64,000 nucleotides of DNA from Brevibacillus sp. (GTDB taxonomy: Bacteria; Bacillota; Bacilli; Brevibacillales; Brevibacillaceae), in contig JACDOF010000001.1 in assembly GCA_017656235.1 (NCBI GenBank), positions 62,001 to 126,000 of the forward strand, read 5' to 3'. The notes under the pieces are model-generated. The model was not told the origin of the DNA, ran no database searches, and worked only from the letters and a program-made list of their open reading frames with translations. A program made the translations under genes and the position numbers. Shown here in pieces: positions 5,179 through 17,077 of this stretch; position 1 is the stretch's first letter; the number at the start of each line of letters is the position of its first letter.

Positions 5179-6897
5179 TTACGTCATGTCGAACGAGATG
5201 TTGTGTTCATCAGCAACTCCGGCTGTCCAAAGTTTTGCCGTCAGTTCGATTAAAAACAGGTCATCCGGATCGGTCAGCGAACGGCCGGTAAGCGATTCGA
5301 TTTTCTTTAAACGGTAGAGCAGCGACTGTCGATGAAGATTGAGAGCACGTGCCGTTTGACTTACATTGCCGTGGTTGCGAATGTACGTCGTTAACGTATG
5401 CAGCAATTCCATGCCGCGGTTTTTGTCATGTTCAAAAAGTTTTCCGATCGTTTGAAGCGTGAGCTCGCGCAGTTCTTCATGGTGGATAAGGGTGCGCAAA
5501 ATGCGGTAAATGCCGGTCTCGGCGTAAGTGGTGACAGCACCGTCGCCCTTTTGGCGCGTCCCAATCTCAAGAGCGGTGCGTGCGTCGTGGTAGCTCGCCT
5601 GGAATGAATCTTCTCCGGTGTGAACTTCACCAATCCCCCACGACATAACGAGATCCGGAAGATACTGCTTGATCTTCTGGTTAACACGCTCGATATAGTC
5701 GCGGGCTTGTCTGCCGGCCTGATCGGCGTCTGCTTCGTAATACACGACAAACTCATTTCGCTGGAAGGTGATCATGATCTTTTTGTTTGCGGTTTTGGCT
5801 GTTTGCGCCATCATCTCTTCCAGGTACGTTGTTACCTCCTGGACCCAGCTCTCAAAAGAGATGTGGTCGTTTTTTTGCTTTTTGTAAACAACGCGCAGGT
5901 TGGTTGGCACGCCGATCAGGCACACGTAAGTGGCATGCATGTCATACCCGAACGATTTGGCACGGATCAGCACCTGTTCCCAGGAGTCAAACTCCCCTTT
6001 GGCCAGACTCCATACAAAATCACCGCGAAGGCGCATTTCTGTCTCCATAATCGCTGTTTCCCGTTGGAACCAAAGCGCCGAGGCCATGGCGGCCTTTTCG
6101 ATCAGGTGTATCATCGCCATGCGCAGCAGCGTTTCCACATTCGTATCAGGGGGAAAGGCGATCACCAAATAGCCCTGGATCTGGTTGGCGGAACGAATGG
6201 CGAACAGCGCGATCAAATGGTTTTCGATCAGGCAGCTTTTCAGCTCGTGCTGTGTGTAGGAATCATGCAGCGTTGTCGGATTCCATAGAAGCAGATCCGG
6301 GTGCTTCTCCAAAGTCCGGTACCATTGCTTGGTGAGAAGACTGGCCTTGCTGCTCTCCCCCTTGATGCCGCCGTGCTGATCTATGATCACAACGGGGTGG
6401 TCAATTTTCTGCTGAAGAGCTTGGGCCACAGCGGAAAAATCTTTTCCATGCAAAAACAAATGCAAGATGATCTGCTGCATTTCTTCCGACTGTTCCAGTA
6501 TCCGGTGCTGCCAATTGTTTATTTCGTGCAGCACGGCATGTGTGATATCGGAAAAACGGACTTCCCACGGTATCTCAATGATCGGGAAGCCCTGTTCAGA
6601 TGCAAATGCAATCACTTCTGCCGGCACTTCCCGGACGTAGTGCCCTTTGGCCAGAACCAGTGCCGCCGCTTCCGAGCGGATGATATCCTGTACAAACTGT
6701 TTTAATAACGCAGCATCATGACCGCAACCGATGGCTGTGCTGAGTACCAACTCGTTTTTGCGCACGAAATTTTCAACTGGAATCTCAATTACCGAAACCC
6801 ATTCGACCGGTCGATGCTGTATCGTATGTGCTGCTGAACAGACTTTGGCTGAATTCATTTCAGGAAGTTCCAGTATCTCTTTCAAGGTACACCCCAT
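5179..6897 (-). CDS. PucR-family transcriptional regulator (ectoine island)
   Basis: This 572-residue protein has an N-terminal PucR sensor domain (starting GCTLKEILELPEM), a central region with a GGDEF-like fold common in this family, and a C-terminal PucR helix-turn-helix (NHGNVSQTARALNLHRQSLLYRLKKIE). Family members activate or repress purine, amino acid or osmolyte catabolism. I chose the ATG at 6897, preceded by GGTGGGG, over an in-frame start 30 bases upstream. It lies 31 bp behind the EutB-like gene on the same strand and is likely co-transcribed with it. It is the best candidate regulator of the divergent island, a role filled by EnuR-type regulators in Proteobacteria (inference). Confidence 0.88.
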   Translation of the reverse strand: MGCTLKEILELPEMNSAKVCSAAHTIQHRPVEWVSVIEIPVENFVRKNELVLSTAIGCGHDAALLKQFVQDIIRSEAAALVLAKGHYVREVPAEVIAFASEQGFPIIEIPWEVRFSDITHAVLHEINNWQHRILEQSEEMQQIILHLFLHGKDFSAVAQALQQKIDHPVVIIDQHGGIKGESSKASLLTKQWYRTLEKHPDLLLWNPTTLHDSYTQHELKSCLIENHLIALFAIRSANQIQGYLVIAFPPDTNVETLLRMAMIHLIEKAAMASALWFQRETAIMETEMRLRGDFVWSLAKGEFDSWEQVLIRAKSFGYDMHATYVCLIGVPTNLRVVYKKQKNDHISFESWVQEVTTYLEEMMAQTAKTANKKIMITFQRNEFVVYYEADADQAGRQARDYIERVNQKIKQYLPDLVMSWGIGEVHTGEDSFQASYHDARTALEIGTRQKGDGAVTTYAETGIYRILRTLIHHEELRELTLQTIGKLFEHDKNRGMELLHTLTTYIRNHGNVSQTARALNLHRQSLLYRLKKIESLTGRSLTDPDDLFLIELTAKLWTAGVADEHNISFDMT

Positions 6898-6928
6898 CAA
6901 GCACACCCCACCATTGTCAAGCACCACG

Positions 6929-7933
6929 TTATGAAGTTTGCTGGTTTGCGTATTTTTCGGCTATCTCCATGACCAGGGACAAATCAACGTTGCAGCCGCT
7001 CATGATGCAGGCGACATGTTCCCCCGGCTGAACGATTCCGTGTTCACGAATCGCGGCTATGCATGTTGCTGCTGCTCCTTCCACAATCATTCGGTGATTT
7101 TCCAGCATATACGCCATGCCTTTGGCAATTTCTTCTTCGGACACGAGGTACACTTCATCCATAAGCTGCTTTGTCATCTGAAACGTGTATTGATTTTCAA
7201 GGCCGATACCGCCAAGCAGGCTGTCGGCAAGCGTATCTTCTTCTGGAAGCAGAAGAGGTTTGCCGGCTTTCAAACTCTCATACATCACGGCTGCTTTTTT
7301 CATGGAAACCCCGATAACCTTTATCTTCGGATCGATTGACTTGACAGCGAGGGCAATCCCGCTAAGCAGTCCGCCGCCGGAGAGCGGGATAATGATTTTG
7401 TCGAGGCGCGGCAGGTCTTCAATGATTTCCAGGCCAATCGTGCCTTGTCCGCTAATGACATGCGGGTCATCAAAGGGATCGATGATCGTGAGGCCCTGTT
7501 CGCTTTGCAGTTTCCTGCAGTGATCGCTGGCTTCATCCTGGCTTTGACCGATAATCTCAACGCGCGCATGGTAGCGGCGAATGCGCTCCACTTTTGCTTT
7601 GGGTACACGATTGGAAATGCAGATCGCTGCAGGAATCCCCAGTGTATTTGCCACGAACGCTACGGCAAGTCCGTGGTTTCCGGTGGAAAACGTGGTCACG
7701 CCCCGTTGGCGTTCTTCAACCGTCAAAGAGAGTATCTTGTTTGCCGCCCCACGTACTTTAAATGCGCCAATGTCCTGCAGGTTCTCCAGTTTCAGGTGAA
7801 TGGAAGCTCCGGTATCCGCCGATAGGGCATGGGAAAAGACGAGGGGGGTTCTTCTGACGATGCGGTTTATTCTGGTTCGTGCTTCGTAAATATCCCGGAT
7901 CGAGAGCGTTTTGTGAGCGAAAGTTGCTGGCAT
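6929..7933 (-). CDS. eutB: Threonine dehydratase-like PLP enzyme, EutB type
   Basis: A 334-residue fold-type II PLP enzyme. Lys59 in AFKVRGA is the Schiff-base lysine and the SGGGLLSG loop binds the PLP phosphate. The length matches catabolic threonine/serine dehydratases without an ACT domain, and also EutB, the hydroxyectoine-utilisation dehydratase. I favour EutB because EutC-like and ectoine-hydrolase genes lie in the divergent operon. It would act on a hydroxylated diaminobutyrate intermediate, releasing water and ammonia. A strong AAGGAGG site precedes the ATG. A plain threonine or serine dehydratase remains possible, so the symbol rests on context. Confidence 0.75.
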   Translation of the reverse strand: MPATFAHKTLSIRDIYEARTRINRIVRRTPLVFSHALSADTGASIHLKLENLQDIGAFKVRGAANKILSLTVEERQRGVTTFSTGNHGLAVAFVANTLGIPAAICISNRVPKAKVERIRRYHARVEIIGQSQDEASDHCRKLQSEQGLTIIDPFDDPHVISGQGTIGLEIIEDLPRLDKIIIPLSGGGLLSGIALAVKSIDPKIKVIGVSMKKAAVMYESLKAGKPLLLPEEDTLADSLLGGIGLENQYTFQMTKQLMDEVYLVSEEEIAKGMAYMLENHRMIVEGAAATCIAAIREHGIVQPGEHVACIMSGCNVDLSLVMEIAEKYANQQTS

Positions 7934-8306
7934 GTCGGATATCCTCCTTATAGTCGGGTATCAACACGGCAAGAATAAGTGGGAATTTACAGTATACAGA
8001 AAAAATAATAAAAAATGCAAAAATTTACGCGGCATTATTGCACGAGCACACATTCTTTCCTATTTTATAGAGCGGAATAACGGGAGAATTATGTTTGTAT
8101 CAAGAAGACAGGGGCCAGGGCAGACTTTTTTGCATTATACATAACGGTCACATTATCGTCAATTGTATAGATTGCAAAAAAGGAAAGGGGCCATCTTCAT
8201 ACATTTTATACATTGCGGAAAGGGACGTGTTTGTTTAACTTTTTGAATACATACATTATTAAACAATTTCAAAAAATTTGAACGATCGTCACGGGAGGCC
8301 GCGTCC
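7934..8306. promoter_or_regulatory. Divergent control region of the ectoine island
   Basis: This 373-bp AT-rich gap separates the minus-strand eutB-pucR pair from the plus-strand catabolic operon. It holds repeated TATACATT/ATACATT words, including TTGCATTATACATAACGG near 8130, and the element at 8165-8218 that recurs upstream of the second ectoine hydrolase. I cannot fix a -35/-10 pair with confidence, but it must hold promoters for both directions and probably the PucR operator. Confidence 0.65.
8165..8218 (+). promoter_or_regulatory. Shared upstream element, copy 1
   Basis: This stretch begins GTATAGATTGCA, continues with an A-rich run and CTTCATACATTTTATACATT, and ends GCGG. The same order of words is found at 15757-15813 in front of the second ectoine hydrolase. 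Two copies at the heads of two transcription units of the same island suggest a common operator or promoter. Confidence 0.6.
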
Positions 8307-9035
8307 ATGATCTACAAAGCAAGAAAGGGTCAAGTCAATTACGGTGAATCGATCGGCATCATTCTGTTGGATACGTTTACCCCATTTATTCCAGGAGATG
8401 TAGGAAACGCAACCACGTACTCCTATCCGGTCCGTTACAAAACCATAAAAGGATTCACATTAGACAAAATGTATGGAATGGACTATGGGTTTATCGAAGC
8501 GTTCAAAGAGGCCGGCAGAGAGTTGGTACAAGACGGCGTTCGTGCGATAACGGGAGATTGCGGTTACATGGCATTGTTTCAGGAGGAATTGGCGAACGAC
8601 CTTGAAGTTCCGGTATTTATGTCCAGCTTGCTGCAGATTCCGTTCATCTCCCGCATCTTGGGCAATGGCGAAAAAGTGGGGATTATCTGTGCCAACTCCA
8701 AAGTCCTGGATGAATCTTTGCTGCGAGCTGTCGGTGTCACCACTGAGCCGTATGCGATCATCGGGTTGGAAAACAAAGAATATTTCTACAAAGGCGTGAT
8801 TGAAGAAGTAGGCGAATTGCATGCTGACAAAGTGGAAAGGGAAGTTGTGGAAGCAGCCGTAGAATTGGTCCGGCAAGATCCAAAAGTAAAAGCGATCCTG
8901 TTGGAGTGCAGTGTACTTCCGCCGTATGCGGCAGCTGTACAGGAAGCGGTTAACCTGCCCGTTTTTGACTTCATCACCATGATCGATTATGTGCACAGTG
9001 CGGTGGTGAAAAAGAGATACCATGGTTTCATGTAA
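8307..9035 (+). CDS. Aspartate/glutamate racemase superfamily protein (EutA-like by context)
   Basis: A 242-residue protein with two widely spaced cysteines typical of the Asp/Glu/hydantoin racemase and arylmalonate decarboxylase superfamily: Cys85 in TGDCGYM and Cys201 in LLECSVLPPY. It starts its transcription unit, with GGGAGG ahead of the ATG. Proteobacterial hydroxyectoine clusters carry EutA of the same superfamily, so a role in handling a chiral hydroxy or amino intermediate is plausible. The N-terminal half (GIILLDTFTPFIPGDVGN) looks more like the uncharacterised racemase group than EutA proper, so I give no symbol. Its end overlaps the next start by 14 bp. Confidence 0.8.
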   Translation: MIYKARKGQVNYGESIGIILLDTFTPFIPGDVGNATTYSYPVRYKTIKGFTLDKMYGMDYGFIEAFKEAGRELVQDGVRAITGDCGYMALFQEELANDLEVPVFMSSLLQIPFISRILGNGEKVGIICANSKVLDESLLRAVGVTTEPYAIIGLENKEYFYKGVIEEVGELHADKVEREVVEAAVELVRQDPKVKAILLECSVLPPYAAAVQEAVNLPVFDFITMIDYVHSAVVKKRYHGFM

Positions 9036-10755
9036 TGTACGGAACGTCGATACCGCGGAAACAGAGATTTTGGTAGTGGGTTCTGGAGCTGCGGGTCTGT
9101 CAGCTGCGGTTCATGCGGCAGTTGGCGGCGCCAAGGTACTTGTCATCGACAAGGGAATGGTGGGAAGAAGCGGATCCACCGTATCGGCCGTGCAGTCTGC
9201 TGCCGCCGGAAAATGGTCAAGCCCGGAAGACAGCGTGGAAGCCTACTACAATGACATCATTGTGTCGGGGAAAGGGTTAAGCAATCCTGAGCTGGTTCGA
9301 ACGTTCGTTCAATACCTGGAGCGATTGATTGATCAACTTGTCAGCTGGGGATTCAAAATCGACTCCGACGCAAATGGAAGTGTTCTCCGCACAGACGCGT
9401 CCGGACATGCATGGAACCGATCGATCAGTGCCGGCAAAGGGCATACCGGCCTTGCCCTTTTAAAAACCCTCATACGTCAAGCCAATCAACTGTCGAACAT
9501 TGCGGTTTTGCCTTTTACCATGTGCGTTCGCCTGCACGTTCACCGTGATCAGATAAGTGGTGCCCTCGTATTCGATCTCATCGAAAACCGTTTTCTCTTT
9601 ATTCGCTGCAAATCGCTTATTCTGGCTGCCGGTGGAGCAGGTCAATTGTATCAAGTTACGACCAATCCCGTGCAATCAACTGCCGATGGCTTTGCGCTTG
9701 CCTTGAAAGCAAACGTTTCACTCATCGACATGGAGCAGGTGCAGTTTTACCCTACCAGTTTGGCTGTCCCACATTTTGTAAAAGGATACTGTTTAAGTTT
9801 TTATCATTTGTCCAAGCTCTACAACTCCAGAAAAGAGCGATTCATGCAAAAATACGACCCCGTCAAACTGGAAAACGTTCCGCGAGATGCGATTTGTTAT
9901 GCAATAGCCAGAGAAATCATGGAAAATCGCGGCTCGGCAAATGGGGGCCTGTTTCTTGACGCGACGGAACACGTGGACAAAGTGAAAGCAGCCTTTCCGC
10001 ACGAATACCGCTTTTTGCAAAAAGTGGGGATCGATCTGGCTGCTGATCAGGTGGAAGTCGCTCCCGCAGCACACTTTATGATGGGCGGAGCGCTGATCAA
10101 TTCATCAGCCATGAGCAATATCGAACAGCTGTATGTCATTGGCGAAACAGCCGGAGGGCTGCACGGCGGGAATCGCCTGGCCAATAATGCGCTGCCCGAA
10201 TGTCTGGTATTTGGTGCGATAGCGGCGGAATCCGCCTCCCGCTATGCTGCGGCAGCCAAATCGTACAACGACATGGATGAAAAGGAATTGATCGCTGCCG
10301 TCCATCGTTACGGCTCGATCATATGCGGAAACGGCGCAGGACAGCAGCGCTCGACCCGGCCTTACGAGTTCAAAAAGCAGCTGCAGCAAACCATGACGAA
10401 ACATGCCTCCATCTTACGGGAGCGGAATGGATTGCTAAAGGCGGAAAAACATCTCCGTTCCTTGACTGAAGATTTTGAACATATTGCCGTGATGGGGTTC
10501 CCAAACAAATTGTCAAGAGACATTCAGGAAATGTTTGAAGCAGAAAACATGTTGTTGACATCGCGCGCGATTATCGCTGCGGCGCTGGCCAGAGAAGAGA
10601 CGAGAGGCGCCCATGTCCGTCTGGACTTTCCGAACCGTTCACCAACGCTGAGCCGAATGGTGATTCAGCACGTGGGCGGTACGCTTCACGTTGAAAGACA
10701 GTCACTGCGGGGGGTGCAGCTGGATGAAGGTGATGGTGGCCAGGTCGGCGGATAA
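9022..10755 (+). CDS. FAD-dependent oxidoreductase, succinate dehydrogenase/L-aspartate oxidase flavoprotein type
   Basis: A 577-residue flavoprotein with an N-terminal dinucleotide-binding motif (VVGSGAAGLSAAVHAA), a substrate-side capping domain and the late FAD motif LHGGNRLANNALPECLVFG, as in SdhA, FrdA and NadB. Its end overlaps the gene for a small [2Fe-2S] protein, so the two probably form a complex that oxidises a carboxylic acid and passes electrons to a carrier. I see no membrane anchor gene nearby. The substrate is unknown. Within the ectoine island, an oxidation of a hydroxy or amino acid intermediate is possible (inference). The start has only a weak ribosome site and overlaps the racemase gene, consistent with coupled translation. 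Confidence 0.85.
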   Translation: MVSCNVRNVDTAETEILVVGSGAAGLSAAVHAAVGGAKVLVIDKGMVGRSGSTVSAVQSAAAGKWSSPEDSVEAYYNDIIVSGKGLSNPELVRTFVQYLERLIDQLVSWGFKIDSDANGSVLRTDASGHAWNRSISAGKGHTGLALLKTLIRQANQLSNIAVLPFTMCVRLHVHRDQISGALVFDLIENRFLFIRCKSLILAAGGAGQLYQVTTNPVQSTADGFALALKANVSLIDMEQVQFYPTSLAVPHFVKGYCLSFYHLSKLYNSRKERFMQKYDPVKLENVPRDAICYAIAREIMENRGSANGGLFLDATEHVDKVKAAFPHEYRFLQKVGIDLAADQVEVAPAAHFMMGGALINSSAMSNIEQLYVIGETAGGLHGGNRLANNALPECLVFGAIAAESASRYAAAAKSYNDMDEKELIAAVHRYGSIICGNGAGQQRSTRPYEFKKQLQQTMTKHASILRERNGLLKAEKHLRSLTEDFEHIAVMGFPNKLSRDIQEMFEAENMLLTSRAIIAAALAREETRGAHVRLDFPNRSPTLSRMVIQHVGGTLHVERQSLRGVQLDEGDGGQVGG

Positions 10756-11020
10756 AGGGAACGTGCTGCAAACGTTTGAGATTTGTGCATCAAAGGAACA
10801 AACGGTTGTTGAAATACTGGAAACCATTCAGCGGCAGTACGATCCGACGGTTGCTTTCTCTTATTCCTGCCGCAGCGGATTGTGCGGGACATGCATCATG
10901 CTGATTAACGGAAAGCCGGCGCTTGGTTGTTTGACCAAACTATCGGGGGAGCAGGAGGAGACAATAACACTCCGGCCGCTGCCTGGAAAGACCTTGATCA
11001 GCGACCTGGTTGTCACCTGA
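10724..11020 (+). CDS. [2Fe-2S] ferredoxin-like protein, SdhB N-terminal-domain type
   Basis: A 98-residue protein with the plant-type/SdhB-type [2Fe-2S] ligands: Cys49, Cys54, Cys57 (CRSGLCGTC) and Cys69. It matches only the N-terminal domain of succinate dehydrogenase iron-sulfur subunits; the C-terminal domain with the [4Fe-4S] and [3Fe-4S] clusters is absent. The ATG at 10724 has a G-rich ribosome site and overlaps the flavoprotein gene by 32 bp. It is the likely electron acceptor of that flavoprotein. The next carrier in the chain is not encoded in the window. Confidence 0.85.
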   Translation: MKVMVARSADKGNVLQTFEICASKEQTVVEILETIQRQYDPTVAFSYSCRSGLCGTCIMLINGKPALGCLTKLSGEQEETITLRPLPGKTLISDLVVT

Positions 11021-11046
11021 AAGAGCTGCAAAAAGGGGGGAATTCC

Positions 11047-11595
11047 TTGAACCTGTTGGCCAAAATCAATGCTGCGGTTGAAAAAGCAGAGAAGTTTGTC
11101 ATTTCCGTGTCTGTGATCATCATGGCGGTTCTGTTGATTGGTAACGTGATCATGCGCGTCATCGTGAACGACAGTTGGGCCTTTACCGACGAAGTTGGAC
11201 GGTTTCTGGTGGTCACAATGACGTTTATCGGTTCGGCATATGCCGCTCGCATCGGCAGACATATTCGTATGTCGGCGATTTACGACATGCTCCCGGCTCG
11301 GGTGCGCCGTGTCCTGATGACGCTGATCAGTTTCGTTACCGCGCTCGGTTTGTTTGTGGTGACGTATTACTGCTTCGAGTACGTACAGTTTCTCTATGAA
11401 AGCGGCCGTGTCAGCAACTCGCTGCGCATTCCCATGTACCTGGTGATGATTTTTGTTCCAATCGGAATGTTTTTGATGAGTGTTCAGTACCTGCTCACGG
11501 CTGTGACCAATCTGGTCAGGAAAGACGGACCGTACGTTTCTCCCCTTAAGAAAGACACCGAAGCGGAAGATTCTGATCAACTGTACAGTGCGTAA
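11047..11595 (+). CDS. TRAP transporter small permease, DctQ family (TRAP 2)
   Basis: A 182-residue membrane protein with four helices and the DctQ blocks NVIMRVIVNDSWAFTDEVGRF and AARIGRHIRM split around helix 2. The start is a TTG at 11047 with AAAGGGGGG upstream; longer in-frame extensions would run into the ferredoxin gene. It sits between the redox pair and the dctM gene. In this TRAP system the binding-protein gene comes last (Q-M-P), unlike TRAP 1 and TRAP 3 (P-Q-M). Its position directly upstream of the ectoine hydrolases makes ectoine or hydroxyectoine the likely substrate, as for TeaABC/UehABC (inference). Confidence 0.88.
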   Translation: MNLLAKINAAVEKAEKFVISVSVIIMAVLLIGNVIMRVIVNDSWAFTDEVGRFLVVTMTFIGSAYAARIGRHIRMSAIYDMLPARVRRVLMTLISFVTALGLFVVTYYCFEYVQFLYESGRVSNSLRIPMYLVMIFVPIGMFLMSVQYLLTAVTNLVRKDGPYVSPLKKDTEAEDSDQLYSA

Positions 11596-11612
11596 ACAAG
11601 GAGGTGAGAGAA

Positions 11613-12884
11613 ATGGTAGGCATCCTGGGCATCACGCTCTTTTCGCTCCTGTTGATCGGCTTTCCGATCATCATGCCGCTGATGGCATCAGCCATAATTC
11701 TGTTGTACATGTTCATGCCTTCCGTCAACACATCCATCTTTGCCCAACAGCTGATTCAAGGGATCGATTCCTATGTCCTGGTATGTATCCCCATGTTCAT
11801 TTTCGCGGCGGAAATCATGTCAAAAGGTCAAACGGCCGACCGGCTGGTTAACTTCGTTCAGGCCTTTATCGGACATGTTCGCGGTGGACTGGCGATGACA
11901 ACGGTAGGGGCATGTGCGGCCTTCGGGTCGATTTCTGGTTCCACGCAGGCGACCGTTGCCGCAATTGGGAAACCGATGCGCGGCCGTATGTTAAAGGCGG
12001 GGTACCGCGACAACGACATTATGGCGCTCATCGTCAATGCGGCGGATACGGCGATCTTGATTCCGCCCAGTTCGGTCATGATCATGTACGGCGTTATTAC
12101 CAAGGTAAGTATCGGCGATTTGTTTATCTCCGGTATTGTACCCGGTTTGCTCATTGTGCTGCTGTTCTCGATCTACTGTTATTTTGATGCGAAGCGGAAA
12201 AACGTGCCCGTGACGGAAAAAGCAAGATGGGCGGAGCGCAGGAAGGCGACAAAAGAGGCGCTCCTTCCATTCGGATTTCCGGTTCTGATTCTTGGCGGCA
12301 TTTACTCCGGAATACTTAGTCCGGTCGAAGCTTCCGCGGCATCCGTGCTGTATGCCTTGCTTCTCGAACTCTACATTTTCCGTTCCATCAAGGCTGCCGA
12401 CCTGTACAAACTGGCCCTCAACACAGGGGTCGTATCAGGAGTGGTTTTCTTACTCGTGGCAGCGGGACAAGTGTTTTCGTGGGTGTTGTCTTACGCGCGC
12501 ATTCCCCAGGAATTGACGGCCTCACTGCTTGGCGATAACCCGTCCGCGCTGCTGGTGTTGATTGTGGTCAACATCGTTTTGTTTATCGGGTGCATGTTCG
12601 TCGACTCACTGGTGGTAATCACGATTGTCGTTCCCATTTTCTTTCCTATTGCCATGCAGGCGGGAATTGATCCGATTTACCTCGGCGTTATTGTCACCAT
12701 GCAAGCGGCCATTGGAGCGGCGACCCCGCCATTCGGCGCCGACCTGTTTACTGCCACTGCGGTATTTAACAAGCGTTATGTCGATATCGTCAAAGGGACG
12801 CCCCCCTACATTCTCATCCTGCTGTTAATCGTTGTGCTGATGACGGCGTTCCCGCAGCTCGGCATGGTGTACAAATACCTATGA
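11613..12884 (+). CDS. TRAP transporter large permease, DctM family (TRAP 2)
   Basis: A 423-residue polytopic membrane protein of the DctM family, with the FGSISGSTQATVAAIGKP block in the first half and TMQAAIGAATPPFGADLF near the C-terminus. It forms the ion-coupled translocation path. The ATG at 11613 is preceded by an excellent AAGGAGGTGAG site; a GTG nine bases earlier lies inside that site and is rejected. A second strong site (AGAAGGAGGTGA, near 12915) follows the stop but opens only a ten-codon frame, so it may be a relic or a leader before the binding-protein gene. Confidence 0.92.
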   Translation: MVGILGITLFSLLLIGFPIIMPLMASAIILLYMFMPSVNTSIFAQQLIQGIDSYVLVCIPMFIFAAEIMSKGQTADRLVNFVQAFIGHVRGGLAMTTVGACAAFGSISGSTQATVAAIGKPMRGRMLKAGYRDNDIMALIVNAADTAILIPPSSVMIMYGVITKVSIGDLFISGIVPGLLIVLLFSIYCYFDAKRKNVPVTEKARWAERRKATKEALLPFGFPVLILGGIYSGILSPVEASAASVLYALLLELYIFRSIKAADLYKLALNTGVVSGVVFLLVAAGQVFSWVLSYARIPQELTASLLGDNPSALLVLIVVNIVLFIGCMFVDSLVVITIVVPIFFPIAMQAGIDPIYLGVIVTMQAAIGAATPPFGADLFTATAVFNKRYVDIVKGTPPYILILLLIVVLMTAFPQLGMVYKYL

Positions 12885-13004
12885 CTGAGCAGATTGTGAT
12901 GTTGCCCCGATGAGAAGGAGGTGAACGGAAAAAGAAAAAGGGGGTTTCCATAGATACAGATCAGTCTTTCACACGTGCACAACATGATAAGGGGGAATCA
13001 AGAA

Positions 13005-14090
13005 ATGAAAAAGTTGAAAACACTTCTGGTACTCTTTTTGGTCCTCGGTCTAGCAATTGTTGGTGCAGCATGTTCTTCAGGGTCAAACAATGCGGACGGC
13101 ACTGAGCAAAATGGAAACACCGCTGGAAGCGAAGAAAAAATCGAGATCAAGTTTGCGCACGAAGAAGCGGAAACCGACCTGCAAGGAATGTACGCAAACA
13201 AGTTCAAAGAGATTCTGGAAGCAAAAACGAATGGGAAAGTAGAAGTTAAGATATATCCGGTTGGAACGTTGGGAACCGACCTGAACATAGCGGAACAACT
13301 GCAGCAAGGCGTTGTTCAATTCGCAATTTCTTCCCCCGGGACGACAGGCAGCATCGTTCCCGAAGCGCAGATCGTGGCATTGAAGTTCCTGTTCTCCGAC
13401 GATCCGAAAGTCAACTACAAAGTGCTGACAGAGGGAAAAGCGTTCAACGAAATGATCGCAGGCGAATACGAGAAGCACAACATGAAAGTGCTGCACTTCT
13501 GGCCTGAAGGCTTCAATAGCTGGACCTCCAACAAGGTGATCAAAACGCCGGATGATTTGAAAGGCTACAAGATGAGAACCCAAACGTCACCGCTGATGGT
13601 CAAATCTTATGAAGTGTTTGGTGCAAACCCGACTCCGCTGGACTTTTCCGAGGTTTACACCGGTTTGCAGTTGGGGACGATTGACGGACAGGAAAACCCC
13701 AACTTCTTTATCGAGAGTACGAATCTGTACGAGGTCCAAAAGTACCTGATCAACGCGCGCCACTCCATATACGTCACCTCGACGGTCGCCAACAAGGAGT
13801 ATTACGACTCGCTGCCGGATGACGTCAGGAAAGCGGTTGAAGAAACCATCAATGAACTGAAGCCGTACGCATTCGAAATCGAGCAGAAGGCAAACAACGA
13901 AGCACTTGAGCGGATGAAGGCCACCGGCAAGATCGAAGTGATCGAACTGGATGAATCCGCACGGGCCAAGTTTAAGGAGTTAAGCGTACCGGCTCACCAG
14001 CTGTACGTAGAAACGGCTGGCGGGAAAGCGCAAGAAATTCTGGACACATTGAAAAAAGAAATCGAAGAAGCTGAAAAAGAAGCGAAATAA
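13005..14090 (+). CDS. TRAP transporter substrate-binding lipoprotein, DctP family (TRAP 2, probable ectoine binding)
   Basis: A 361-residue lipoprotein with Cys23 in the lipobox GAAC. DctP hallmarks include GYKMRTQTSP, carrying the conserved substrate Arg, and GTIDGQENPNFF. It is the last gene of TRAP 2, and the first ectoine hydrolase follows 128 bp downstream. I therefore infer a TeaA/UehA-like role in binding ectoine or hydroxyectoine. The aromatic cage residues of those proteins cannot be assigned by eye, so specificity is unproved. I chose the ATG at 13005 with GGGGGAA upstream. A perfect 13-bp hairpin (14108-14146) follows the stop. Confidence 0.88.
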   Translation: MKKLKTLLVLFLVLGLAIVGAACSSGSNNADGTEQNGNTAGSEEKIEIKFAHEEAETDLQGMYANKFKEILEAKTNGKVEVKIYPVGTLGTDLNIAEQLQQGVVQFAISSPGTTGSIVPEAQIVALKFLFSDDPKVNYKVLTEGKAFNEMIAGEYEKHNMKVLHFWPEGFNSWTSNKVIKTPDDLKGYKMRTQTSPLMVKSYEVFGANPTPLDFSEVYTGLQLGTIDGQENPNFFIESTNLYEVQKYLINARHSIYVTSTVANKEYYDSLPDDVRKAVEETINELKPYAFEIEQKANNEALERMKATGKIEVIELDESARAKFKELSVPAHQLYVETAGGKAQEILDTLKKEIEEAEKEAK

Positions 14091-14107
14091 CCAACAAGCG
14101 ACTGTTC

Positions 14108-14146
14108 AACATCAGTCAGGGACTTGAACCGTTCCTGACTGATGTT
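14108..14146 (+). terminator. Perfect 13-bp hairpin behind the TRAP 2 binding-protein gene
   Basis: Arms 14108-14120 and 14134-14146 are perfectly complementary with a 13-base loop. No T-run follows, so it is more likely an mRNA-stabilising or processing structure than a terminator. It separates the abundant binding-protein message from the downstream enzymes. Confidence 0.6.
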
Positions 14147-14218
14147 CACGGTCAGCCATCGGAAAGCATCCATCTTGGGAAGCGGTTCCCTAGCACGTGT
14201 AAGTGGGAGGTGTACAAT

Positions 14219-15400
14219 ATGGCAACTCCAGAATTGTCATTTGACATTGCGGAATACAAGGAACGGCTGCGCAAAACAAAAATTCGCATGGAACAAGAGG
14301 GAATTGAGGTCCTCCTCGTTACAGACCCGGCAAACATGTGTTATCTAAGCGGCTATGACGGTTGGTCTTTCTATGTGCACCAAATGCTTGTCGTGTTTGG
14401 CGATGAAGAGCAGCCGGTATGGATTGGCCGAAAAATGGATGCGAAGGCGGCGGAATTCACCACATGGCTCAGCCATGAAAACATTCTCTATTATTCTGAC
14501 GACTATGTTCAATCGAAGATCAAACACCCGATGGATTTTGTGTGCGACTTCCTTAAGGAAAAAGGACGGGCCAACAAAACCATCGGTGTCGAGATGGATA
14601 ACTACTACTTTACTGCCCAGTGTTATGTGAGCCTGATGAAAGGCCTCCCTAACAGCAGGCTGGTTGATGCCACTTCACTTGTCAACTGGGTGCGTGTGAT
14701 TAAATCCGACCGGGAAATTGAGCTGATGAAGCGGGCAGCCAAGCTGGTGGAGAAGGCCATGCAATCAGGGATTGACAAAATAAACGCGGGTGTTCGCGAG
14801 TGTGATGTCGTGGCGGACATTTACCATGCGGAGATTACCGGGACAGAAGAGTTCGGGGGAGATTATCCCGCCATCGTTCCCCTTCTGCCTGCCGGTGAAA
14901 AGACCAGTACGCCGCACATCACCTGGTCAGATAATCGCTACAAAGAGGGAGACCTTGTCATTTTGGAGCTGGCAGGGTGCTGCAAGCGCTATCATTCTCC
15001 CATGGCTCGTACCGTATCGATTGGAAAGCCCTCGCAGAGAGTCCTCGATTTAACAGAGGCGGTTGTGGAAGGGATTAACGCCGCATTAGACGCGGTAAAA
15101 CCGGGTGTAACGGCGGAAGAAGTGGAGGCGGTCTGGCGGAGCACAATCGCGAAACACGGCTTCGTAAAAGATTCGCGGATTGGATACTCCACAGGCTTGA
15201 ACTACCCGCCGGACTGGGGGGAGCATACGATCAGCCTGCGTCAGGGAGACAAGACCGTGCTTCAACCGAATATGACCATTCACATGATACCGGGAATCTG
15301 GCAGGACAACTACGGCGTGGAAATCAGCGAAACGTTCCGCGTGACGGAAAACGGATGCGAAACATTAGCGAACTTCCCGCGCCAGTTGTTTGTCAAGTAA
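14219..15400 (+). CDS. doeA: Ectoine hydrolase, M24 creatinase-like family (first copy)
   Basis: A 393-residue protein with the layout of DoeA/EutD: a creatinase-like N-domain and an M24 pita-bread C-domain. Diagnostic segments I recognise from ectoine hydrolases are NMCYLSGYDGWSFYVHQ, GVEMDNYYFTA, LVNWVRVIKSDREIE and GGDYPAIVPLLP. The enzyme opens the ectoine ring to N-acetyl-2,4-diaminobutyrate. It follows the TRAP 2 operon and precedes a broken MFS fragment and a second full copy at 15893. I chose the ATG at 14219, with GGGAGGTG upstream. By eye it is very similar to the second copy along the whole length. EutD is the alternative symbol. Confidence 0.87.
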   Translation: MATPELSFDIAEYKERLRKTKIRMEQEGIEVLLVTDPANMCYLSGYDGWSFYVHQMLVVFGDEEQPVWIGRKMDAKAAEFTTWLSHENILYYSDDYVQSKIKHPMDFVCDFLKEKGRANKTIGVEMDNYYFTAQCYVSLMKGLPNSRLVDATSLVNWVRVIKSDREIELMKRAAKLVEKAMQSGIDKINAGVRECDVVADIYHAEITGTEEFGGDYPAIVPLLPAGEKTSTPHITWSDNRYKEGDLVILELAGCCKRYHSPMARTVSIGKPSQRVLDLTEAVVEGINAALDAVKPGVTAEEVEAVWRSTIAKHGFVKDSRIGYSTGLNYPPDWGEHTISLRQGDKTVLQPNMTIHMIPGIWQDNYGVEISETFRVTENGCETLANFPRQLFVK

Positions 15401-15406
15401 AAGGTC

Positions 15407-15751
15407 ATGTTTCTCATCAGCCTGATTGCAGCCGTATCCGCCATCAGTCGTGTCAAACACTCGTTTTCCCGCTCCATTAAACACACCACCTCTGTGCGGG
15501 AACTGTTTGGCGAGATAAAAAAAATTTGGCCAATCGCCTATCTCGGATTTGCCTATTCCGGGTTTTTGTTTACAGTGTGGGCGTTTTTATCATTGTTCGC
15601 GCAGCACTTCGCCATCAACTTGCTCGGAATCGGCATTTTATATGCCTTGTTTTGGTGCTGTCGCCTTGTATCATTTTTGTTCATTGATTTCTTGGCGTTC
15701 AGCTACCAGCGCAAATGCGTGCTCATGGCAGGAGCATGCCTGACGATGTAA
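15407..15751 (+). pseudogene. Fragment of an MFS transporter
   Basis: This open stretch of about 114 codons encodes a polar segment (REFLFGEIKK-like) followed by three hydrophobic helices. The layout recalls the region around helices 7-9 of a major facilitator protein after its central loop. There is no N-terminal half and the frame stops early, at 15749-15751. It begins 6 bp after the first ectoine hydrolase with no clear ribosome site. I read it as the remnant of a transporter gene caught between the tandem hydrolase copies. A small membrane protein cannot be fully excluded. Confidence 0.5.
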
Positions 15752-15756
15752 CGGAC

Positions 15757-15813
15757 GTATAGGTTGCACAAAAAGGTTTGTTCCAACTTCATACATGTTG
15801 AACATTGTTGCGG
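15757..15813 (+). promoter_or_regulatory. Shared upstream element, copy 2
   Basis: The stretch starts GTATAGGTTGCAC, continues AAAAAGG and ACTTCATACATGTTGAACATT, and ends GCGG. The same order of words, with matching spacing apart from small gaps, is seen at 8165-8218 in front of the racemase-like gene. Here it precedes the second ectoine hydrolase by about 80 bp, which suggests a separate promoter under the same regulator. Confidence 0.6.
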
Positions 15814-15892
15814 TATCCCCACTTTTTTTATGATGCGAATAAGGCAGTGGAATCCATCAGTCGTGTAATTGTCATCTCGAGGAGGAAACCCA

Positions 15893-17077
15893 ATGGCGAT
15901 TGCGGAGTTGAATTTTGACATTTCAGAATACCGGCAAAGGCTGCAAAAAACAAAACAGCGCATGGAACAGGCCGGGATCGAAGTGCTGATCGTGAGCGAT
16001 CCGGGGAATATGAATTACCTCACGGGTTACGATGGTTGGTCATTCTATGTTCATCAATGTCTCGTGGTGTTCATTGATGAAGACCAGCCGCTTTGGATCG
16101 GGCGTGGTCAGGACGCAAAGGCTGCCGAATTCACCACGTGGCTGCACAAGGATAACATCATTCCGTATGCAGACGATTACGTTCAGTCCACCGTAAAGCA
16201 TCCCATGGATTTTGTCAGCGACATCATCAAGAGCAAAGGGAAAGCGGGCAATACGGTGGGGGTTGAGATGGACAGCTACTATTTTACGGCCAAGTGTATG
16301 GAAAGCCTGCAAAAAGGACTGCCCAACAGCTCATTCGTTGACGCAACCTCGCTCGTCAACTGGGTCCGCATCATCAAGTCCGAGCGGGAAATCGAGTTCA
16401 TGCGAAGAGCGGGCAAGATTATGGAAAAAGCGATGCAGGTCGGTCTCGATTCGATTGAGCCAGGCATACGCGAGTGCGATGTGGTGTCCAAGATTTATGA
16501 AGCACAGATCCGCGGGACGGACTCGTTTGGGGGCGATTATCCGGCGATCGTACCGCTGCTGCCAGCGGGGGAAAAGACGAGTACACCGCACATTACCTGG
16601 TCGGACAATCGCTACAAACAAGGAGACCTTGTCATTCTGGAACTGGCCGGATGCTATAAACGTTATCACGCACCGATGGCCCGCACCCTTTCACTGGGCA
16701 CACCATCACAAAAAGTGCTCGATTTGGCGGAAGCTGTCCTTGAAGGTATCGCGGAAGCACTTGCAGTCGTAAAGCCGGGTGTCACTGCCGAAGAGGTGGA
16801 AGAAGCGTGGCGAAAATCGATCAGCAAGCGGGGATTTGTGAAGGATTCGCGGATCGGATACTCCATCGGTTTAAACTACCCTCCGGATTGGGGCGAGCAC
16901 ACCGTAAGCCTGCGCCAGGGAGACAAGACGGTGCTTCAAACCAACATGACCCTTCACATGATCCCGGGCATCTGGCAGGACAACTACGGGGTGGAAATCA
17001 GCGAAGCGTTCCGTGTAACGGAAAACGGCTGCGAGCCGCTGTATGATTTTCCCCGCCAGCTTTTCATAAAGGATTGA
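15893..17077 (+). CDS. doeA: Ectoine hydrolase, M24 creatinase-like family (second copy)
   Basis: A 394-residue paralogue of the protein at 14219, with the same diagnostic blocks (NMNYLTGYDGWSFYVHQ, GVEMDSYYFTA, LVNWVRIIKSEREIE, GGDYPAIVPLLP). The copy keeps all conserved segments, so both look functional. A GAGGAGG site precedes the ATG at 15893. It carries its own upstream element and leads directly into eutC. Two copies may divide the work between ectoine and hydroxyectoine, or simply raise dosage (inference). No DoeB/EutE-type (aspartoacylase-like) deacetylase gene accompanies either copy. Confidence 0.88.
   Translation: MAIAELNFDISEYRQRLQKTKQRMEQAGIEVLIVSDPGNMNYLTGYDGWSFYVHQCLVVFIDEDQPLWIGRGQDAKAAEFTTWLHKDNIIPYADDYVQSTVKHPMDFVSDIIKSKGKAGNTVGVEMDSYYFTAKCMESLQKGLPNSSFVDATSLVNWVRIIKSEREIEFMRRAGKIMEKAMQVGLDSIEPGIRECDVVSKIYEAQIRGTDSFGGDYPAIVPLLPAGEKTSTPHITWSDNRYKQGDLVILELAGCYKRYHAPMARTLSLGTPSQKVLDLAEAVLEGIAEALAVVKPGVTAEEVEEAWRKSISKRGFVKDSRIGYSIGLNYPPDWGEHTVSLRQGDKTVLQTNMTLHMIPGIWQDNYGVEISEAFRVTENGCEPLYDFPRQLFIKD

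Follow-up and report, generated by a model that had tools for sequence, protein, structure and literature searches.

A conserved two-box element upstream of two ectoine utilisation units in Brevibacillus, the probable operator of the adjoining PucR-type regulator

A stretch of 64,000 nucleotides of the Brevibacillus sp. genome (contig JACDOF010000001.1, positions 62,001 to 126,000 of the forward strand; hereafter the window, position 1 being its first letter) carries a gene island that was assigned to ectoine/hydroxyectoine utilisation from Pfam and NCBIfam profiles and from reading of its sequences. Within this island a short element recurs at two places, referred to here as site 1 and site 2, and the present analysis addresses its nature. 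The genes that matter most are the following:

5179-6927, minus strand: pucR, encoding a PucR-type regulator, the presumed binding protein (Pfam PucR domain PF07905, E 4e-32; HTH_30 PF13556, E 2e-20; GGDEF-like domain GGDEF_2, E 1e-13)
6929-7933, minus strand: eutB (NCBIfam NF005680, above cut-off)
8307-9035, plus strand: eutA-like gene of the Asp/Glu racemase family, first behind site 1 (Pfam PF01177, NCBIfam NF005679)
15893-17077, plus strand: second eutD, ectoine hydrolase family, first behind site 2 (best match TIGR02993, 535.5 bits, below the cut-off of 613)

With a PucR domain at the N-terminus and HTH_30 at the C-terminus, the pucR product has the domains of a PucR-type regulator. The gene eutB immediately precedes pucR on the minus strand, with a gap of 2 nt, and the two genes presumably form one transcript. 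Behind site 1 come eutA, a flavoprotein (flavin adenine dinucleotide, FAD), its 2Fe2S partner and tripartite ATP-independent periplasmic (TRAP) transporters. Site 2 is followed by the second eutD (ribosome site AGGAGG from 15880), eutC (NF006141, above cut-off), a cystathionine-synthase-like pyridoxal-phosphate (PLP) enzyme (NF006097), an M20 amidohydrolase and two genes whose sequences were read as those of a homoserine dehydrogenase and an aldehyde dehydrogenase. Both eutD-family hydrolases of the island have TIGR02993 as best match and fall below its cut-off. This gene order agrees with an earlier interpretation made from the letters of the window alone (hereafter the sequence-only reading), in which one copy of the element was said to head a racemase-flavoprotein-TRAP unit and the other a second hydrolase and eutC.

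The intervals 8165-8218 and 15757-15813 share, in the same order, GTATAG-A/G-TTGCA, an A-run, CTTCATACAT, ACATT and GCGG. All the words named by the sequence-only reading were found, although one of them does not belong to the element: the terminal GCGG is absent at both corresponding sites of the sister species while the remainder is kept there, so that it is, on this comparison, coincidental and outside the element. When the eutB-eutA gap was locally aligned to the one preceding the second eutD, the score was 52, a value reached in 0/2000 dinucleotide-preserving shuffles (mean 27.8, standard deviation 4.7, maximum 47). Besides, GTATAGNTTGCA occurs without mismatch at exactly two places of the 3.6-Mb genome, which are site 1 and site 2. 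The same two sites are the only exact occurrences of TTCATACANNTTNNACATTG genome-wide, and tolerating up to two mismatches yielded one extra place for it and none for the control.

PucR orthologues were then gathered from relatives and from 80 named loci, the loci being chosen by PucR homology, and their neighbour was nearly always eutB, eutD or the PLP-enzyme gene. An expectation-maximisation motif search over 175 non-redundant upstream gaps, started from random positions and without the two sites of the sequence-only reading as seeds, converged on TTCATACAATTTGGCGAATG, hereafter box B; the box was thus recovered de novo in the upstream gaps of related Bacillota, as TTCATACAnTTTGGCGGATG. Alignment of 66 non-redundant sites from other genera delineated a weaker upstream box, AAWTTGACTAAAA (box A), at a fixed distance from box B, the box RAAAnTTCATACAnTTTKGCGGATG itself and a -10 hexamer. 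A matrix built from these 66 sites, the window and the sister species being left out, found its two best matches of the window at 15783 (16.5 bits) and 8191 (13.7 bits), the next one (9.9 bits) lying inside eutA. The best score of 200 shuffled windows averaged 7.6; none reached 16.5, three reached 13.7, and the second-best score never reached 13.7. The features of the two sites were delimited as follows:

8158-8181, plus strand: site 1, box A region, holding TCAATTGTATAGATTGCAAAAAA (box A matrix 6.9 bits at 8167; kept in the sister species)
8191-8215, plus strand: site 1, promoter-proximal box B, CCATCTTCATACATTTTATACATTG, with TTCATACA at 8196 (matrix 13.7 bits, second-best in 64 kb)
15756-15776, plus strand: site 2, box A, CGTATAGGTTGCACAAAAAGG (box A matrix 5.0 bits; kept in the sister species)
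15783-15807, plus strand: site 2, promoter-proximal box B, CCAACTTCATACATGTTGAACATTG, with TTCATACA at 15788 (matrix 16.5 bits, best in 64 kb)
15805-15810, plus strand: site 2, weak -35 hexamer TTGTTG, overlapping the end of box B
15829-15834, plus strand: site 2, -10 hexamer TATGAT, at +41 from TTCATACA, exactly the conserved -10 offset

The spacing between box A and box B is 24 nt at both sites, one nucleotide longer than in other genera, and both sites carry an upstream box of the form TATAGnTTGCA that is private to the window genus. Two readings of the whole score alike, a single inverted repeat with a gap of 14 and a direct pair of quasi-palindromes spaced by 33 nt. Both elements recur at the corresponding positions of the sister species (G002), standing out by their conservation from a gap that is hardly alignable elsewhere; the copy of the site 1 box B there is found at L049:11088. 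The distant genome G385 carries TTCATACATTTTATACATTA, a single base off site 1, hence the box variant of the window is not unique to its genome.

Across the training loci, sites of at least 14 bits were found at 1.48 per kb in upstream gaps versus 0.009 per kb elsewhere, both figures being in-sample. The box faced an island gene in 86/93 loci, the genes faced in these 93 loci being eutD (64), the PLP enzyme (19), M20 (3), eutB (2), eutA (1) and eutC (1). Boxes also precede transporter genes, namely an ehuB-like gene in G305, an amino-acid ATP-binding cassette (ABC) system in G323 and permeases in G006 and several loci. The position of the box relative to the promoter was conserved as well. TATAAT-like hexamers were present at +41 in 59% of the 66 sites and at +40 in 39%, with mostly 2-15% at other offsets, and no conserved -35 was detected among these aligned sites. 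Box B ends at +19, so that in the 66 relatives and at site 2, which fits the +40/+41 peaks exactly, a quasi-inverted repeat directly precedes the -35 position. Assuming a transcription start some 7 nt past the -10 hexamer, box B would cover roughly -53 to -34 in the window, and box A roughly -79 to -67.

Selecting loci by PucR homology partly builds in a co-occurrence of the box with pucR, and this weighs against too ready an association; the actual test is provided by held-out genomes and by genomes devoid of PucR. All the held-out PucR-bearing genomes (13/13) have a box of at least 14.1 bits beside eutD or pucR; none of these sites belonged to the training loci, and their identity to any training site did not exceed 63% over 90 nt, except in G391 (84%). 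By contrast, no box was found near eutD in the genomes that have eutD without PucR (0/6: G001, G092, G196, G206, G236 and G242). The difference gives a Fisher p of 3.7e-5, a value that ignores shared ancestry. Among these six, G001 belongs to the window genus and harbours an eroded ectoine island (L182, 7284-14711) in which pucR, eutA and the flavoprotein gene are lost and the TRAP genes are in fragments; it retains the eutB, eutD, eutC, PLP-enzyme and M20 genes and has no box. Conversely, in G006, G010, G037 and G038, which have pucR but lack eutD, the box still stands ahead of the PLP-enzyme unit. When 199 and 398 whole genomes were scanned, matches of at least 22 bits were encountered almost only in PucR-bearing genomes; since many of the positive genomes had contributed to the training set, it is the negatives that are informative in these scans.

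From these results, the element most probably serves as operator for the PucR-type protein encoded at 5179, acting as an activator of ectoine breakdown. The sequence-only reading had left open whether it was a PucR operator or a shared promoter, and its proposal is supported insofar as the element is conserved across Bacillota next to eutD or the leading catabolic gene, lies just upstream of a -35-poor promoter and tracks pucR, not eutD. The predicted operator would consist of two quasi-palindromic boxes, the strong box B adjoining the -35 position on its upstream side, and the weaker box A about three helical turns beyond. A PucR-type protein, signalled by an ectoine-derived metabolite, would bind both boxes and recruit RNA polymerase to promoters whose -10 is good but which lack a good -35, thereby turning on the eutA-FAD-TRAP unit from site 1 and the second eutD, eutC and the following enzymes from site 2. 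An activator is suggested because the box stands just upstream of promoters that have their -10 at a constant distance and lack a good -35. On the other strand, a divergent promoter was recognised:

8134-8162, minus strand: eutB-pucR promoter, -35 TTGACG (8162-8157), 17 nt, -10 TATAAT (8139-8134), 11/12 consensus matches

Its -35 reaches into the outer end of the site 1 box A region. The same geometry is seen in L049, L052, L053 and L067, where the -35 begins at offset -33 or -34, so that the divergent promoter abuts box A in five loci. Since the eutB-pucR promoter abuts box A in the eutB-eutA gap, autoregulation is suggested: the element lies between a strong promoter of the regulator and a -35-poor catabolic promoter, a layout expected of an autoregulated activator, and with the outer box against the -35 the same binding would probably limit or tune the synthesis of the regulator.

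Several observations weigh against this assignment. The copies of the window genus are modest (13.7 and 16.5 bits) compared with scores of up to 34 elsewhere, and no clear -10 was recognised at +41 from site 1. A genome-wide scan with the model from other genera ranked the two sites first and third, and it also returned matches of similar score in unrelated places of the same genome, which were excluded from the regulon count. One box match of 18.9 bits (L187, G000:C11:78609) lies between a RidA-like gene and probable spoVG and is probably due to chance; because a better short-box match precedes an unrelated gene, sequence taken out of context would not single out the two sites. Moreover, G199 has a 23.2-bit match and no PucR orthologue (the sole exception among matches of at least 22 bits). 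PucR is an inferred partner of the element, and some of the eutD genomes without PucR are poor in the rest of the cluster. Because G092 and G196 keep little else of it, absence of the box could there reflect absence of the whole unit. These last points would suit a different, unlinked regulator, for instance a global nitrogen or carbon regulator, whose sites would be associated with pucR only through the shared cluster. This is unlikely, as the box accompanies pucR even in genomes devoid of eutD, is missing from the congener that retains eutD, eutC and following genes without pucR, and has almost no strong matches in PucR-less genomes.

It is similarly improbable that PucR binds these sites as a repressor. 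Box B touches the -35 position, and the PucR of B. subtilis is reported to activate or repress depending on the position of its box (PMC10242094, citing Beier 2002); however, targets with a good -10, no good -35 and a box just upstream have the layout of activated promoters, and activation is the mode of action of the other PucR-type regulators that have been studied (PMC7652997). A recent duplication of the promoter together with eutD, devoid of regulatory meaning, would account for the private box A and the 24-nt spacing common to both sites, but is very improbable: the box is kept in dozens of other genera and at both positions of the sister species amid a hardly alignable gap, which disposes of the duplication-only explanation that the sequence-only reading had itself raised. 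As a full explanation it is refuted by the de novo motif and by the results of the other-genera matrix. Since both sites share the private upstream box and one extra spacing base, one of them may derive from the other by copying, though the element itself is far older than any such event. Finally, the two arms can pair partly, which would suit an RNA structure or riboswitch in the leader transcript, yet the element lies upstream of the -10, hence would fall outside the mRNA, and no Rfam match was found in 24 kb; this explanation has hardly any probability left.

Returning to the predicted PucR operator, its layout is in line with that of GabR, the PucR-type activator of gabTDP in C. glutamicum, whose binding region, between -87 and -23, comprises two 21-bp inverted repeats that directly precede the -35 and are both required for strong binding (PMC7652997). 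In both cases a PucR-family regulator is encoded near its target operon and two inverted-repeat boxes of about 21 bp precede the -35. The likeness concerns the layout; GabR serves the gamma-aminobutyrate pathway, lacks the GGDEF-like domain of the window protein and has proven binding, whereas the window operator is predicted. AdeR and PutR of B. subtilis are likewise described as PucR-type activators with inverted-repeat sites of 24 and 17 bp upstream of amino-acid catabolic genes (as reviewed in PMC7652997), a resemblance of general description; the window PucR scores 78.7 bits against the AdeR cut-off of 700. The B. subtilis PucR box belongs to the same regulator family, and its position relative to the -35 is said to decide between activation and repression (PMC10242094); it differs in being reported as non-palindromic (account in PMC7652997). 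The same pathway is controlled in Ruegeria pomeroyi by EnuR, which differs in being a repressor of the MocR/GabR type with predicted operators overlapping the core promoter (PMC8739950). A survey reports that Bacillota yielded no homologue of EnuR (PMC13188858), and no EnuR-type protein was detected among the cluster proteins scanned with Pfam and NCBIfam, the rest of the genome not being searched for one.

The consensus of the B. subtilis PucR box is reportedly WWWCNTTGGTTAA, of which only TTGG-N2-AA is common to box B. A 2026 survey described putative Gram-positive ectoine-degradation clusters with an adjoining PucR as a possible regulator of unknown role (PMC13188858). The gene neighbourhood is the same, but the survey gives no operator, motif or mechanism, and the term "binding site" is absent from its text. 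No description of the present operator was found in the literature searched, within which it would be a newly described operator of a known kind, that of a PucR-type activator. It gives the PucR of Gram-positive ectoine clusters a concrete candidate binding site, together with a set of targets and a promoter layout, making the control of ectoine consumption in these bacteria experimentally testable, and the motif can be used for annotating the regulon across Bacillota, uptake genes included. We somewhat favour the broader view that a PucR-type protein is the activator devoted to ectoine catabolism and uptake in Gram-positives, with a two-box operator found from Brevibacillaceae to Clostridia and perhaps a downstream metabolite as inducer. 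Because boxes precede the PLP-enzyme unit in the absence of eutD, the inducer may be diaminobutyrate or its acetyl form, and not ectoine. Acetyl-diaminobutyrate derivatives are the inducers of EnuR in other bacteria (PMC8739950), and by analogy we would guess that they also act on PucR.

Two further candidates were rejected. Self-alignment proposed a third copy of the complete element, in inverted orientation, at 8096-8150, but the box matrices gave it no support, and the divergent eutB-pucR promoter sits there; a sigma-54 promoter, prompted by TTGCA, was dismissed by inspection since the GG/GC spacing does not fit. Besides, the loci L077, L054, L061 and L062 combine pucR, the PLP-enzyme gene and the operator without eutD, three of the four also having homoserine dehydrogenase and aldehyde dehydrogenase genes, which possibly represents a pathway for diaminobutyrate or homoserine. 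In two species of one genus (L033 and L232; G075 and G220), pucR contains in-frame stops (one TAA and two TAG, respectively) and the operator is still recognisable. In G305 (L276:3025-3905), an operator box lies ahead of a stop-split gene for an ehuB-like ectoine-binding protein. Lastly, a 114-aa open reading frame without Pfam match (15407-15751) separates the first eutD from site 2 in the window; because the two eutD genes of the sister species lie only about 150 nt apart, this comparison marks it as an insertion or a gene remnant.

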